Below, in pieces: positions 14,736-56,678 of a stretch of DNA of 64,000 bases. Below the pieces are notes generated by a model. It searched no databases. It worked only from the letters and a program-made list of their open reading frames with translations, and was not told the origin of the DNA. Each line of letters begins with the position of its first letter. The first letter of the stretch is position 1. The translations under genes were made by a program, and so were the position numbers. This stretch comes from Phycisphaeraceae bacterium (lineage in GTDB: Bacteria > Planctomycetota > Phycisphaerae > Phycisphaerales > Zrk34), in assembly GCA_028282805.1 (NCBI GenBank), contig JANQHD010000028.1, positions 1-64,000 on the forward strand, in the 5' to 3' direction.

Positions 14736-17208
14736 AGTGTATTCGACCTTAGCCCGTGATCAATCCGCAACGCTGGGGCATCGAAGCCGGCTCGGGCATC
14801 AAGTGTATTCGACCTTAGCCCGTGATCAATCCGCAACGCGGGGCCGGTGCGGATCGCCAGCTGCACGAGTGTATTCGACCTTAGCCCGTGATCAATCCGC
14901 AACGACCTGAGTGGTGGGGCCTCGTCGATCTGGAGTGTATTCGACCTTAGCCCGTGATCAATCCGCAACACGTCTCGGCGCTGAAAACAACCGGGTGCGA
15001 GTGTATTCGACCTTAGCCCGTGATCAATCCGCAACCGTAAGGTAGTGACGTAGCTTACCTTCAACAGTGTATTCGACCTTAGCCCGTGATCAATCCGCAA
15101 CCATTACATTCTTTGGCATGTTGGGCATGTCAGTGTATTCGACCTTAGCCCGTGATCAATCCGCAACTGTCAGATCGGAGGTCACGCCGGACGCAAAAGT
15201 GTATTCGACCTTAGCCCGTGATCAATCCGCAACGTGGCCTGCCCAACCCCCCCCGTACTAACAAGTGTATTCGACCTTAGCCCGTGATCAATCCGCAACA
15301 CTACATCACCGCGGGAACGATCATCGAGGAGTGTATTCGACCTTAGCCCGTGATCAATCCGCAACGAGCCACAGTACATCCGCGTCATGCATACAGTGTA
15401 TTCGACCTTAGCCCGTGATCAATCCGCAACGTGCTGCGCGGCTTCGAGCGGCCGAAGGTGAGTGTATTCGACCTTAGCCCGTGATCAATCCGCAACTTGC
15501 TTCGCATACTCCGAGTGGGGTGGTTGAGTGTATTCGACCTTAGCCCGTGATCAATCCGCAACCAGCCGCCGATCGTGCCCGCGTTGCGTTCAAGTGTATT
15601 CGACCTTAGCCCGTGATCAATCCGCAACGACCCGAGCGGCTAGGTCGCACGCGTGAGCAGTGTATTCGACCTTAGCCCGTGATCAATCCGCAACGATGCC
15701 GCGGCCAAGGTGCGAGACATTCCAGTGTATTCGACCTTAGCCCGTGATCAATCCGCAACACCGTACGTCTTGCCGTCTTTGCCGACGCAAGTGTATTCGA
15801 CCTTAGCCCGTGATCAATCCGCAACGTCTTCACCGAGTGCGACACGTAGTATGTCAGTGTATTCGACCTTAGCCCGTGATCAATCCGCAACCCAATTAGC
15901 GGGTCAGACGCAATCAATGTAGTGTATTCGACCTTAGCCCGTGATCAATCCGCAACCAACGCTACATTGGTCAGTCCGGTGGTCGCAGTGTATTCGACCT
16001 TAGCCCGTGATCAATCCGCAACGAGGCGCAGGTCCGGCCGGTGGTCGCGAAAGTGTATTCGACCTTAGCCCGTGATCAATCCGCAACGGGACCGGACATG
16101 ATCCCAGCCGCATCGGGAGTGTATTCGACCTTAGCCCGTGATCAATCCGCAACTGTGACGCGGCCTCTCGCGACATTTGACTAAGTGTATTCGACCTTAG
16201 CCCGTGATCAATCCGCAACTGGCCGTTGATTAGCAAGGCATACGGCCGCAGTGTATTCGACCTTAGCCCGTGATCAATCCGCAACGAAGCAATGGCGGCA
16301 CTGGTAGCGGCGAACAGTGTATTCGACCTTAGCCCGTGATCAATCCGCAACATGGTGTGGCAGATGTCTGCAAACACCAACAGTGTATTCGACCTTAGCC
16401 CGTGATCAATCCGCAACTCAACGACAGCGGTGCCGCCAGTTCTGGTTAGTGTATTCGACCTTAGCCCGTGATCAATCCGCAACGTTGCGCCCATCAGCAA
16501 GCCGCCGGAGCGCAGTGTATTCGACCTTAGCCCGTGATCAATCCGCAACTGTCGTGGAGCGTCGCCGAGGCTCAGGTGGAGTGTATTCGACCTTAGCCCG
16601 TGATCAATCCGCAACGGTGAACCAAATGGCAAGCTCGCGACGCTGAGTGTATTCGACCTTAGCCCGTGATCAATCCGCAACTATATTCCGCGATTAAGGC
16701 ACGCGACGCCGAGTGTATTCGACCTTAGCCCGTGATCAATCCGCAACTTGATCGGCGCGCTTGAGATACTCATCGAGAGTGTATTCGACCTTAGCCCGTG
16801 ATCAATCCGCAACTACCAAAGATGTCGCAGGAAGCAATAGAACAGTGTATTCGACCTTAGCCCGTGATCAATCCGCAACCTGCTGCTCTGTCGAACCGCT
16901 TGGCCGGGGAGTGTATTCGACCTTAGCCCGTGATCAATCCGCAACCGTAGCCGATCCAGCGCTGCCGGCGATGTAGTGTATTCGACCTTAGCCCGTGATC
17001 AATCCGCAACACCGGACAGATCGGCGAGACCGACGTCAAGAGTGTATTCGACCTTAGCCCGTGATCAATCCGCAACTGGTCGATCGGTGCGCCGGTCGAG
17101 GGCAACAGTGTATTCGACCTTAGCCCGTGATCAATCCGCAACGAGTTGCGGGGGGGGTGTTACTGGATTGCCAGTGTATTCGACCTTAGCCCGTGATCAA
17201 TCCGCAAC
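14736..17208 (-). CRISPR. Type II-C CRISPR array, 38 repeats and 37 spacers
   Basis: A 36-bp repeat occurs 38 times without a single base change that I can see. On the plus strand it begins AGTGTATTCGACCTTAGCCC and ends GATCAATCCGCAAC. Spacers are 30 bp, except five of 29 bp (those ending just before repeats at 15395, 15724, 15921, 16052 and 16975). The tracrRNA shows the crRNA strand is the minus strand, where the repeat begins GTTGCGG. Read that way, each repeat holds TTGATC at positions 9-14 and TACACT at 31-36, spaced by 16 bases: a promoter-like element as in Neisseria, from which each crRNA could be transcribed by itself. The array converges on cas2. The degenerate last repeat often seen at one end of an array is absent. 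Confidence 0.98.
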
Positions 17209-17478
17209 CCAAAGGCGACTGGCGCAGGCGAGGCGCTGCTTCCGCAAGAGGTCCAGCAACCCCCTGTATTTGTGAATCTGCAGCAGCCACTCGCAGTCGT
17301 CGTCGACGTAGCCCAACAGCAAGAAGAGTTCCTGGCCCTCCACTTCCGTGTCGATAGACCAAGCGAAGTCTTCGTAGATGTCTATCTGGCCGATCTTCAA
17401 GCCCTCATTCGAGAGCAGCTTTGCAAGTAGTGCGCAAGTTCCTCGTCCGGCGGATGGACATCAAGGTCAACCGGGAAG
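17209..17478 (-). pseudogene. Fragment of an unknown gene abutting the array
   Basis: Minus-strand coding-like sequence in two frames. An upstream part reads PVDLDVHPPDEELAHYLQ. A second part, in another frame, reads IYEDFAWSIDTEVEGQELFL followed by LLGYVDDDCEWLLQIHKY, and it runs into the last CRISPR repeat, where it meets a stop created by the repeat. It looks like one protein gene with a frameshift whose 3' end has been replaced by the array. I do not recognise the family. No AT-rich leader is seen here even though this is the upstream side of the array for crRNA transcription. Confidence 0.5.
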
Positions 17479-44413: not shown

Positions 44414-45007
44414 ATGAGGCACCCGTGCCCCAAGTTGGCTTTCGCGGCGTTGGCGCTGCTGCCGACCGTGGCCCTCGCCGCAAGCGAAGGTGGCGAGGTC
44501 AACGTCGGCGAGAGGTTGCTCAAGCCCGACCTCGGTTCCGTGATCTGGAACCTGGTGATGTTCCTGTTGCTGATCGTGGTGCTCGGCAAGTTCGTCTGGC
44601 CGAAGATCCTCGACGGCCTCCAAGCCCGCGAGCAAAAAATCCGCGGCGACCTCGACGCCGCCGAGCAGGCCCGCGCCGAGGCCGATGCGCTCAAGGAAGA
44701 CTTCGCGCAGAAGATCGCCGAGGCCCACGCCGAGTCGCGCAAGCTGCTCGACCAGACCCGCGAAGACGCCGGCCAGCTGCGCGCCAAGCTCCAGGCCGAC
44801 ACCGAGGCCGAGCTCGCCCGCGTACGCGAGCGCGCCGCCGAGGACATCGACCGCGCCAAGCAGCAGGCATTGCAGGACCTCTACGCGACCAGCGCCGAGC
44901 TGGCCACCGCCGTGGCGGCCAAGATCCTCCAACGCCAGGTCGACGACGCCGACACCCAGAAGCTCGTCGAGCAGTCGCTGGCCGAGCTGGAAAACAAGGC
45001 CGGCTAA
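44414..45007 (+). CDS. atpF: ATP synthase F0 subunit b
   Basis: A 197-residue peripheral stalk subunit. A signal-like N-terminus (CPKLAFAALALLPTVALAAS) precedes the membrane anchor VIWNLVMFLLLIVVLGKFVW and a long charged coiled coil rich in Ala, Glu and Lys. The extra N-terminal hydrophobic stretch, as in some other planctomycete and cyanobacterial-type b subunits, suggests processing. It is 55 bases after atpE. Confidence 0.93.
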   Translation: MRHPCPKLAFAALALLPTVALAASEGGEVNVGERLLKPDLGSVIWNLVMFLLLIVVLGKFVWPKILDGLQAREQKIRGDLDAAEQARAEADALKEDFAQKIAEAHAESRKLLDQTREDAGQLRAKLQADTEAELARVRERAAEDIDRAKQQALQDLYATSAELATAVAAKILQRQVDDADTQKLVEQSLAELENKAG

Positions 45008-45043
45008 CCCGAAACGCGAACCCCGAAGCCCGGAACCCGAGTT

Positions 45044-45661
45044 TTGCCCGAAAGCACAGCTGACAACCCGGTGAAAGTGATCGACGCGGTGTCGATGCTG
45101 TATGCGCGTTCGCTGATGGAGCTGGCGCAGGAGGGGGGCGTCGTCGACGAGGTGGCCGAGGAGCTGCCGCAGCTCGTGCAGTTGCTGGCCGGTCAACCGG
45201 ACCTCGCCGAGCTGTTCAAGAGCCGGGCGATCAACACCGCCGCCCGCGCCCGCAGCATCGAGGCGATCTTCAAGGGGCGGGTCAGCGACCTGACCTACCG
45301 GTTTTTGCAGGTGCTCAACGACAAGGGCCGGCTGGCCATCGTGCCGACCATCGCCGCCGGCTACGCCAAGCTGCTGAAAGACGCGCGTGGCGAGGTCGAC
45401 GTCGAGGTCATCACCGCCCGCGCGCTGTCCGACGCACAGCTGCGGGCCGTCGGCGCCAAGGTCGGCGCTTCGGTCGGCGGCAAGGCCCTGCTCAGCCAGC
45501 GCGTCGACGAATCGATCCTCGGCGGCCTCAAGCTCCGCATCGGCGACAAGCTCATCGACGGCTCGGTCGCGACCCAACTGCAACAGATCAAGCGCGACAT
45601 GGTCGCCCGGGGCCGCGAGGCCGTGAGGAGCAACACCGAAGCGCTGCTCAGCGACGAGTGA
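45044..45661 (+). CDS. atpH: ATP synthase F1 subunit delta
   Basis: About 205 residues. The N-terminal helical domain begins VSMLYARSLMELAQEGGVVD, followed by FLQVLNDKGRLAIVPTIAAG and the C-terminal strand region LKLRIGDKLIDGSVATQLQQ, all typical of the delta/OSCP family joining F1 to the b stalk. The start is uncertain: TTG at 45044 or GTG at 45071, neither with a clear ribosome binding site. The next operon gene, atpA, is displaced by the four-helix-bundle insertion. Confidence 0.93.
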   Translation: MPESTADNPVKVIDAVSMLYARSLMELAQEGGVVDEVAEELPQLVQLLAGQPDLAELFKSRAINTAARARSIEAIFKGRVSDLTYRFLQVLNDKGRLAIVPTIAAGYAKLLKDARGEVDVEVITARALSDAQLRAVGAKVGASVGGKALLSQRVDESILGGLKLRIGDKLIDGSVATQLQQIKRDMVARGREAVRSNTEALLSDE

Positions 45662-45723
45662 TTTGGAGATAGCCACCGAGCCATCGAGGCGGATGACGGC
45701 CAGCACGCGATCGGTGGATCGCC

Positions 45724-45748
45724 CGTTTAGCGACGGCCCGCAGGGCCG
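45724..45748 (+). repeat. REP-like palindromic repeat, copy 1
   Basis: CGTTTAGCGACGGCCC then GCAGGGCCG. The core GGCCC-GCA-GGGCC is a palindrome. Further copies are at 51868, 56470 and 56679. Confidence 0.6.
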
Positions 45749-45770
45749 GGCTTCAGGAGGAGCGGCGAAC

Positions 45771-46151
45771 ATGAGTTCCGGGCAGGATGCGAAGATCCGC
45801 AGCTACCAGGATTTGGTGGCTTGGCAAAAAGCATACGAGTTGGCCCGGCGGATTTACGGGCTGACCAAACGGTTTCCGGAGGACGAAAGGTTCGGCATGA
45901 CCGCCCAGATGCGGCGTGCCGCGGTCAGCATTCCCTCGAACATTGCCGAGGGATGGGGCCGAAACTCGAAGAACGATTACCTGCGCTTCCTGAAGATCGC
46001 GCGTGGCTCGACCTACGAACTTCAGACGCAGATCCGGCTGGCGATCGATTTCGATTACGCCACGCCGAGCGACGAAACACTGGGCCTGACGGGCGACGTT
46101 GAGCGTTTGATCAACGGCCTGATCCGGTCACTGGAACAAAACGCCCGATGA
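45771..46151 (+). CDS. Four-helix-bundle protein (23S rRNA intervening-sequence type)
   Basis: A 126-residue protein of the TIGR02436/S23 family, first known from intervening sequences in 23S rRNA genes. It starts SYQDLVAWQKAYELARRIYG, has FGMTAQMRRAAVSIPSNIAE (the hallmark R-AAVSIPSNIAEG) and YLRFLKIARGSTYELQTQIR. These proteins form a pentameric helical bundle that may bind nucleic acid; related Avd proteins serve diversity-generating retroelements. AGGAGG lies ten bases before the ATG. It is placed inside the ATP synthase operon and bordered by inverted repeats, so it is a likely passenger rather than an ATP synthase part. Confidence 0.93.
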   Translation: MSSGQDAKIRSYQDLVAWQKAYELARRIYGLTKRFPEDERFGMTAQMRRAAVSIPSNIAEGWGRNSKNDYLRFLKIARGSTYELQTQIRLAIDFDYATPSDETLGLTGDVERLINGLIRSLEQNAR

Positions 46152-46217
46152 GCCTCGATGGCTCGGTGGCTGGATGGCTCGGTGGCTGACGCCGCCGACA
46201 CCGCGGAGCGCAACGAC

Positions 46218-47753
46218 ATGAAGATCCGTACAGACGAAATCACCAGCGTGATCAAGAACGAGATCGCCCAGTACTCGGCCGACCTGCAGGTCAGCGAGGT
46301 CGGCAAGGTGCTGGAGGTCGGCGACGGCATCGCCCGCGTCTCGGGCTTGGCCAACTGCAAGGCCGCCGAGCTGCTCGAGTTCGAGGCCGAGGACGGCTCG
46401 GTCGTCATGGGCCAGGCGATGAACCTCGAAGAGGACACCGTCGGCGCCGTGCTGTTCGGCGAGTACCTCAAGATCAAGGAAGGCATGTCCGTCAAGACGA
46501 CCGGCCGCCTGCTCGAGGTGCCCGCCGGCGAGGCCATGCTCGGCCGCGTCGTCAACCCGCTCGGTGAGCCGCTCGACGGCCTCGGCCCGATCGAGGCGAC
46601 CACCACGCAGAAGGTCGACGTCATCGCCCCGGGCATCGCCGCCCGCCAGCCGGTCAAGGAGCCGCTGCAGACCGGCATCAAGGCCGTCGACTCGATGATC
46701 CCCATCGGCCGCGGCCAGCGCGAACTGATCATCGGCGACCGCAAGACCGGCAAGACCGCCGTCGCGCTCGACACCATCATCAACCAGAAGTACACCCACC
46801 AGACCGACGCGCCGGTGTACTGCATCTACGTCGCCGTCGGCCAGAAGGAGTCGACCGTCGCCGGCGTCGTGCAGACGCTTAAGGAACAGGGCGCGATGGA
46901 CTACACCATCGTCGTCAACGCCGCGGCTTCCGACCCCGCCCCGCTCCAGTACATCGCCCCGTACTCCGGCTGCGCCATGGGCGAGTACTTCATGTGGAAG
47001 GGCAAGCACGTGCTGTGCATCTACGACGACCTGTCCAAGCAGGCCGTCGCCTACCGCCAGCTGTCGCTGCTGCTGCGTCGCCCGCCCGGCCGCGAGGCCT
47101 ACCCCGGCGACGTGTTCTACCTGCACAGCCGACTGCTCGAACGCGCCACCAAGCTCTCCGACGAGCACGGCGCCGGCTCGCTCACCGCGCTGCCCATCAT
47201 CGAAACCCAGGAAGGCGACGTCTCGGCCTACATCCCGACCAACGTCATCTCCATCACCGACGGCCAGATCTACCTCGAGCCCAACCTGTTCTTCGCCGGC
47301 GTCCGACCCGCGATCAACGTGGGCATCTCCGTGTCTCGCGTGGGCGGCAACGCGCAGATCAAGGCCATGAAACAGGTCGCCGGCTCCCTCCGCCTCGACC
47401 TCGCCGCCTTCCGTGAGCTCGAAGCGTTTGCGCAGCTCGGCACCGAGCTCGACGCCGCCACGCAGAAGCAGTTGGATCGCGGCGCCCGCATGGTCGAGCT
47501 GCTCAAGCAGCCACAGTTCGTGCCGATGGACGTGATCGACCAGGTCATCGCGATCTTCGCCGGCAACAAGGGCTACCTCGACGACGTGCCGATCGACCGG
47601 GTCGCCGACTTCGAGCAGGGCCTGATGGAGTACATGACCTCGACCGCCAAGGCCGTCCGCGACGAGCTGGCCGAGAACAAGGCCCTGAGCGACGACCTCG
47701 AGAAGCGCCTCGCCGAAGCGATCGCCGCTTTCAAGCAGGGCTTTAGCGCCTGA
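46218..47753 (+). CDS. atpA: ATP synthase F1 subunit alpha
   Basis: A 511-residue regulatory nucleotide-binding subunit. Walker A is [40 protein letters not shown] and [20 protein letters not shown] are the conserved alpha signature; [16 protein letters not shown] and [14 protein letters not shown] follow. The ATG at 46218 with GGAG upstream opens [19 protein letters not shown], the normal alpha start. The genes that usually follow (gamma, beta, epsilon) are not in this window; the unit ends here with GC-rich hairpins. Confidence 0.97.
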
Positions 47754-51570: not shown

Positions 51571-51595
51571 TATAGTTTATAGACTATAAACTATA
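51571..51595. repeat. AT-rich palindrome family, copy c (perfect)
   Basis: Identical to copy a, including the central A. It lies 50 bases behind the sulfatase stop and next to the 7-mer array. Confidence 0.85.
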
Positions 51596-51619
51596 ATCTA
51601 TTGTATTCAATTGTTCGCA

Positions 51620-51682
51620 CCCCCGGCCCCCGGCCCCCGGCCCCCGGCCCCCGGCCCCCGGCCCCCGGCCCCCGGCCCCTGG
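51620..51682. repeat. Tandem array of 7-mer CCCCCGG
   Basis: Eight exact copies and a ninth with one T. It follows palindrome copy c by 25 bases. The array is highly strand-asymmetric (C-rich on plus). Confidence 0.9.
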
Positions 51683-51867
51683 TGCGCGGTGCGCGATGTG
51701 CGGCGTGCGGCCCTCGGCATCAGGCGCGCAGTGTGTGGCACGCGGCCCCGGCGCGCGCCGCCTGGCCCTCGGCGCTCGGCATTTGGCGCCTGGCCCCCGG
51801 CACGTGGTGTGCGGCACGCAGTGCGCGAGGGTGGCGGGCGGGGTGAAACCAATGGCGCATCAAAGCA

Positions 51868-56294: not shown

Positions 56295-56384
56295 CCAACC
56301 ACCCGCGCCCGCTCGCGGCGCAGCGCCCCACCCAGCACCACCCCTCCGCCAAACACCCCTCCGCCCCGTCCGTACGCCGAGCAA

Positions 56385-56409
56385 TATAGTTTATAGTCTA
56401 TAAGCTATA
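56385..56409. repeat. AT-rich palindrome family, copy e (one mismatch)
   Basis: TATAGTTTATAG, T, CTATAAGCTATA, followed by a partial extra AGCTATA unit. Confidence 0.75.
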
Positions 56410-56469
56410 AGCTATACACGCATCAATGACCGCGTATGGGTGATGGATGCCCGCACGGGCTGGCCGCCT

Positions 56470-56494
56470 CGTTTAGCGACGGCCCGCGGGGCCG
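56470..56494 (+). repeat. REP-like palindromic repeat, copy 3
   Basis: CGTTTAGCGACGGCCC then GCGGGGCCG; one base differs from copy 1. Confidence 0.6.
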
Positions 56495-56556
56495 CGCGTT
56501 TCCCGCCAACCTGCCGAGCCAGTACTTCACACTCTTGAGCAATCCCGGTTCGATGA

Positions 56557-56581
56557 TATAGTTTATAGTCTATAAACTATA
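56557..56581. repeat. AT-rich palindrome family, copy f (perfect)
   Basis: TATAGTTTATAG, T, CTATAAACTATA. A 7-mer array starts ten bases later, the same arrangement as copy c. Confidence 0.85.
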
Positions 56582-56590
56582 TCATTTCCC

Positions 56591-56625
56591 GCACCCCGCA
56601 CCCCGCACCCCGCACCCCGCACCCC
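56591..56625. repeat. Tandem array of 7-mer GCACCCC
   Basis: Five exact copies, then CGGGTG. C-rich on the plus strand like the array at 51620. Confidence 0.9.
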
Positions 56626-56678
56626 GGGTGTCGACCGCCGCAACGAATGAGCGCATCCCGACGCGATTGGTGTCAGTT

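Follow-up and report, generated by a model that had tools for sequence, protein, structure and literature searches.

An S23/IVP gene enclosed by inverted octamer arrays in an ATP synthase operon, and a candidate two-part system of IVP genes and gene-less hairpins

The cassette between atpH and atpA

How does a gene for a four-helix-bundle protein, bounded by exact inverted repeats, come to stand between two genes of an ATP synthase operon? The question is raised by the window analysed here, a stretch of 64,000 nucleotides from a Phycisphaeraceae bacterium. A sequence-only reading had described in it a single S23/IVP gene between atpH and atpA, with ends like those of a mobile element but no transposase. 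Repeat and profile searches confirmed the gene, its position and its exact 20-bp inverted repeats (45671-45690 against 46152-46171; Table 1). A further copy of the arm is present on the right-hand side at 46170-46187, matching at 17 of 18 positions. Both arms consist of tandem octamers with the unit AGCCAYCG, and they are paired in the predicted RNA fold of the cassette stretch (z -7.2). A PADLOC search of the cassette gave no defence-system match, and an Rfam search returned nothing but a sub-threshold miRNA match.

Table 1. Features of the cassette and its neighbours, in window coordinates.
Feature	Coordinates	Strand	Description	Basis or remark
atpH (delta subunit, OSCP)	45044..45661	+	Upstream neighbour	TGA end 9 bp 5' of left arm
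Left arm	45671..45690	+	2.5 tandem octamers, AGCCACCG-AGCCATCG-AG(GC)	Repeat search, octamer family
REP palindrome	45726..45752	+	TTTAGCGACGGCCCGCAGGGCCGGG, within cassette	Member of a separate dispersed family
Shine-Dalgarno of IVP gene	45756..45761	+	AGGAGG	Direct sequence reading
IVP/S23 gene	45771..46151	+	Four-helix bundle, 126 aa	Profile matches
Right arm	46152..46187	-	Inverted octamer array, CTCGATGG CTCGGTGG CTGGATGG CTCGGTGG CT	Complement of left arm
atpA (alpha subunit)	46218..47753	+	Downstream neighbour	Profile match

Two further features were seen beside the cassette. The right arm opens an in-frame ATG 5' of atpA (window 46158-46217), which might extend the alpha subunit at its N terminus. 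Between atpF and atpH (window 45006-45040) lies a single, non-inverted heptamer array of the CCCGAAC/CCCGGAA type, whose unit resembles GGGTTCC, the unit of another IVP of the same genome.

The cassette gene belongs to the S23/IVP family. Its product matched PF05635 with an E value of 1.5e-36 (125.2 bits; cut-off, 33.8) and TIGR02436 with 7e-36 (122.8 bits; cut-off, 24). The closest solved structure is 2gsc (XCC0516; sequence match E 1.5e-27), a pentameric ring. The match to PF22296, the bAvd fold, was weak and below cut-off. IVP, bAvd and Avd were the only profile families matched by the gene, with no Y1 tyrosine transposase (RAYT) among them, and the IVP has no catalytic (nuclease) domain. 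No transposase was found within the IVP elements examined, whose arm unit varies from locus to locus.

We compared the atpH-atpA junction in relatives, most of which have no IVP gene there. The spacer measures 3-177 bp in most relatives with a readable junction and 439-560 bp in the four genomes with an IVP gene (G000, which is the source genome, G008, G042 and G060); G019 has a long spacer without an IVP. Two other genomes (G006 and G025) hold different, gene-less hairpins at the junction, indicating that this spot tolerates hairpin insertions. The four atp IVPs form one clade in which pairs follow the host families, which does not support a recent move into the operon and favours one event over repeated insertion. 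Judged from these comparisons, the atp IVP probably goes back to one old insertion that was inherited, with frequent losses, and this fits better than a recent hop. Clade-specific targeting of the junction may be an alternative to a single insertion, the G042 copy branching outside the other three in a large tree. The four proteins are under purifying selection, with pS of 0.74-0.93 and pN of 0.23-0.34.

Inverted periodic arms and their gene-less relatives

The source genome gave nine IVP matches. Besides the window gene, those at L002/L068, L003, L004, L131, L137, L152 and L153 lie in inverted short tandem arrays, with the units GGGTTCC, GGCTTGA, GGTCAATC, CGGAATC, CGGAGTT, CGATCTG and CCAATGA, respectively; the arm scores of L137 and L152 reach the 99% control level only. 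L005 is an IVP without inverted arrays. The idea that other IVP genes would have ends like those of the cassette thus held for the construction and failed for the sequence, the units being different.

Arms were scored for 61 genomes of the order by comparing the flank upstream of each IVP gene with the flank downstream of it, reverse-complemented. Mismatched locus pairs served as the null (99% point, 14), and periodic arms scoring at least 15.5 were counted as high-scoring. Inverted periodic arms were found at 68 of 124 IVP loci versus 6 of 698 ORFs of the source genome (odds ratio 140, p 3e-57), in a sample with uneven phylum coverage, non-independent loci and incomplete contigs. The 124 loci include 30 from 11 further genomes, nine of these from other phyla, and at least two of the six arm-positive control ORFs are IVPs themselves. 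The period is 7 at 47 of the 68 loci, 8 at 19 and 6 at 2. The arms have a median length of 31 nt, hold about 4-5 units, and lie about 19 nt 5' of the start and 12 nt 3' of the stop codon. The 5' arm is G-rich at 62 of the 68 loci, the window arm being among the exceptions; this reflects inward polarity and not gene orientation, because an inverted repeat has an identical 5' arm on both strands.

Arm-positive loci occur in Planctomycetota, Desulfobacterota, Chloroflexota, Gemmatimonadota and Acidobacteria (one of three loci), and arms were seen at none of three loci in Verrucomicrobia. Seven of eight plasmid IVPs (six cyanobacterial and one from Azospirillum) score at least 23, and that of Trichormus scores 12.5. 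The arms in 14 phage contigs are mostly of the AGGCTGT/AGTCCGT type; the phage-type IVP was not found in annotated phage genomes. About 45% of the fetched IVP loci, including L005 and L145/L146, show no clear arms, so the protein can also exist without them.

Some IVP neighbourhoods deserve mention. The gene adjoins ketoacyl-ACP synthase-like genes at L003 (G000), L145 (G054) and L146 (G048); arms are present at the first and absent from the other two, whose IVP overlaps the gene that follows, as though it had been domesticated. On the Anabaena sp. 90 plasmid pANA02 (L280), a type I-D CRISPR operon contains an IVP gene between its cas6 and cas4 genes.

When searched across the source genome, the 20-bp ends of the cassette were found to recur. 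The octamer unit pattern has 91 matches versus 25 for a reversed-pattern control, and these roughly 90 copies are mostly gene-less, inward-facing pairs 60-110 bp apart. The loops of the gene-less octamer hairpins at L006, L007, L011, L019 and L021 seem to share the core AGAAC...GCGCCCGCA...TTCT. Our census of dispersed arrays covered 1.25 Mb of the 3.9-Mb genome. The REP-like palindrome noticed earlier in the cassette is real, but it belongs to a family independent of the octamer arms: its head, TTTAGCGACG, occurs in 30 copies in 1.25 Mb versus 1 expected, 28 of them with a stem. The supposed link of this palindrome to the cassette was not borne out, since the family is dispersed independently and the RAYT-like genes lie elsewhere.

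Other repeats were encountered in the same genome. Three RAYT-like genes, identified by eye, lie inside REP palindromes (L171, C52:82684-83350; L204, C50:17442-18178; L185, C52:364651-365282). A palindromic family, TTATTCTAAWGTTCTTAAGAACWTTAGAATAA, occurs at L177, L185, L192 and other loci of this genome, often near small ORFs. More heptamer arrays are found in the window at 51578-51703 and 56384-56626 (CCCCCGG x8.6, CCCGCAC x5.6 and TATAAAC), alongside two inverted ATATAGTTTATAG copies that face each other across a loop of 147 nt. A CRISPR-like array with a 36-nt repeat, AGTGTATTCGACCTTAGCCCGTGATCAATCCGCAAC, and spacers, with a period of about 66, occupies 14736-17209.

The repeat unit follows the IVP lineage. 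In a tree of 113 IVPs, the units GGGTYTN, GGCATCR, AGGCAYKR, GTYAAYC, CCAATGA and CGGAKTC are common to lineages across genomes. Over 2,212 between-genome pairs, unit and protein similarity were correlated (Mantel rho 0.197, reached by 0 of 1,000 permutations), versus -0.10 in a control with one arm reversed. Mean unit similarity increased from 0.17 to 0.41 with rising protein similarity and stayed at 0.13-0.17 throughout in the reverse control. This is a modest correlation, to which common descent of entire elements could partly contribute.

The unit is also coupled to the genome. The arms of the eight armed IVPs of the source genome each correspond to 7-23 dispersed arrays in 1.25 Mb, versus a median of 0 for 68 foreign arms (p 1.5e-6). 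We then counted the arm patterns of the four atp IVPs in G000 and G008 (family f1) and in G042 and G060 (family f6). In that order of genomes, the G000 pattern has 91, 20, 1 and 1 matches, the G008 pattern 1, 28, 1 and 0, the G042 pattern 0, 0, 75 and 0, and the G060 pattern 0, 1, 1 and 30. The 20 matches of the G000 pattern in G008 are in a genome of the same family whose own unit is similar. Each orthologous arm pattern is abundant only at home, indicating that the atp IVP and the hairpins of its genome changed together. Mismatches amounted to 10% at facing positions versus 24% between neighbouring units of one arm, in an alignment that favours facing positions. They showed no wobble bias (49 versus 55), so RNA pairing is seemingly not under selection. 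Beyond what had been read from the window, therefore, the arms are tandem 7- or 8-mers whose unit is specific to the lineage, and every IVP is accompanied by a gene-less hairpin population of its own.

A second gene family was found in hairpins of this kind. GxxExxY (TIGR04256) genes lie in inverted CACAGAGG-type arrays, 26 of 29 loci scoring higher than the shuffled maximum, which is 13. The source genome has such a gene at C6:113074-113421, in inverted ACCACAGAGGCACAGAGACACAGAGG arrays (L212, L227; G000:C6:113033-113471). Most GxxExxY loci of the order share the inverted-array anatomy.

Presence and absence of hairpins and possible explanations

In the phage lineage, IVP genes are antisense and have an HK97-gp10-like gene on one side and a tail gene on the other. 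This junction measures 10-20 bp in most related contigs, 445-460 bp in four contigs with a hairpin and an IVP, and 99-105 bp in three (L306, L435/L436) with a bare heptamer hairpin of similar unit. Compared with the near-identical L438, L435 has a clean 94-bp insertion between a TGA stop and a GGAG Shine-Dalgarno, with no target duplication beyond a possible 2-bp GA. The genome-wide recurrence of the ends and the presence or absence of hairpins support the earlier description of a mobile-type cassette without a transposase. That description also withstood comparison among loci and genomes, other IVPs being armed and most relatives having no gene at atpH-atpA; the target duplication sought with it was not found, the window locus having no closely related genome with an empty site to compare. 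We also compared five IVP-free with five related IVP-rich genomes: the former, over 400 kb, had 6 arrays (null 14) and 0 hairpins, versus 38 arrays (null 14) and 5 hairpins in the latter.

Taking together the anatomy seen in several phyla, the coupling of the unit to IVP lineage and genome, and the presence or absence of hairpins at the phage junction, we consider it fairly likely that the cassette represents the gene-bearing form in an apparently mobile, REPIN/RAYT-like system of two parts that has no transposase. In one part, tandem 7- or 8-mer arrays would enclose an IVP/S23 gene as an inverted pair, and the other part would be short gene-less hairpins with the same unit, dispersed in intergenic DNA of the same genome. 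In the DNA hairpin, the IVP protein would recognise its own unit, perhaps with one subunit per unit, and might aid the copying or keeping of hairpins in trans, as RAYTs supposedly do for REPINs; cutting and joining could be left to host replication or repair enzymes. An ancestor common to two families of the order would have acquired the element at atpH-atpA, and some lineages would have retained it; in these, the atp arms would have changed along with each genome's repeat family. The intervening sequences (IVSs) of 23S rRNA would be the same kind of copy, landed in rRNA helices.

It may be instead that the hairpin is the true actor and the ORF a passenger, as GxxExxY, unrelated to IVP, sits in the same construction. 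Hairpins would then spread alone, through errors of hairpin-templated replication for instance, with IVP genes as cargo inserting into their loops, like IVSs in rRNA helices. Two unrelated families in hairpins built alike, an IVP without a nuclease domain, and the 103 of 216 arrays of the source genome that match no own IVP unit all agree with this. Nevertheless, arrays are not above chance in the sampled IVP-free relatives, and the unit varies with IVP lineage and genome, even at one orthologous locus. We thus regard this explanation as somewhat unlikely.

The IVP might also be a regulator that binds the repeats. The dispersed hairpins would then act as its operators or as elements in mRNA, and the arms of the IVP gene itself would serve for autoregulation or let RNase III process the atp mRNA. 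Such a role would suit the intergenic position of the hairpins and the purifying selection on the atp IVP. RNase III cuts the Coxiella IVS at its terminal stem, beside heptamers (PMC4990558), and it has been suggested that a regulator, as yet unknown, binds repeat pairs of Geobacter (PMC2700814). However, the arms have no G-U bias and hence give no sign of selection for RNA pairing, the phage IVP is antisense to late genes, and whole hairpins are present or absent at one site, which points to insertion; a regulatory role appears clearly improbable to us. A non-autonomous transposon moved by a transposase elsewhere, such as a RAYT acting on the REP of the cassette, would be compatible with the RAYT-like genes and REP family of the genome and the one REP in the cassette, but is very improbable, as the other examined IVP elements of the genome have no such REP, their arm units differ although one transposase would need one end type, and no target duplication was found.

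Relation to known systems

The S23/IVP family has so far been without a function, and the tandem heptamers of cyanobacteria, Xanthomonas, Geobacter and Beggiatoa have been without an owner. A link between IVP and hairpins may account for repeats that have been on record for decades. It makes both sides testable, with several natural protein-repeat pairs per genome, and orthologous IVPs with differing units amount to a natural experiment on recognition. Should the protein drive the hairpins, the system would be a mobile one in which no transposase can be recognised. In the open-licence literature on GxxExxY, S23, heptamers and IVP, we found no description of a link between repeats and IVP. We see roughly even chances that, across bacteria, dispersed tandem heptamer/octamer hairpins have S23/IVPs as their dedicated partners, in a second, transposase-free REPIN/RAYT-like system with a protein-to-unit code, of which rRNA IVSs, cyanobacterial short tandem repeats (STRRs) and the heptamers of Xanthomonas and Geobacter would be special cases.

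Avd, the accessory protein of diversity-generating retroelements (DGRs), has the bAvd fold and is a distant relative of the IVP family (PF22296, below cut-off), but no reverse transcriptase or variable repeat was seen beside the cassette. Like MITEs, the hairpins are short, contain no gene and are related to a gene-carrying element whose ends are inverted; unlike them, they have no transposase parent, no fixed terminal sequence and no visible target duplication. In the Coxiella IVS, the terminal stem measures 28 bp and tandem heptamers adjoin the S23p start codon (PMC4990558). The 23S rRNA IVSs of Leptospira and Coxiella resemble the cassette in having an S23p/IVP ORF inside terminal inverted repeats, whereas the cassette lies between atpH and atpA and not in a 23S rRNA gene. 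The IVP elements described here also have genome-wide gene-less copies and lineage-specific units, a link absent from PMC4990558.

REPIN/RAYT systems comprise a gene and dispersed hairpins matching its flanks, with gene-repeat co-evolution and an inferred non-autonomous spread (PMC3116915). The two-part logic is shared, as a hairpin population matching the IVP flanks is present here. However, IVP is not a tyrosine transposase, the arms are tandem 7/8-mers instead of REP palindromes, and the IVP element encloses its gene.

Arrays of the same type have been described elsewhere: some 70 inward-facing pairs of GGGAATC arrays in Xanthomonas (PMC4692102), paired opposite-strand arrays in Geobacter metallireducens, each of four or five octamers or heptamers in tandem, ascribed to an unidentified regulator (PMC2700814), and tandem TAACTGA repeats in Beggiatoaceae (PMC4679880). 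These repeats and the cyanobacterial STRRs resemble the IVP hairpins in unit length, in having about four units per array and in their intergenic position, and the inward-facing pairs are shared with Xanthomonas and Geobacter. They were described without a gene family, whereas here the same array type encloses IVP genes.
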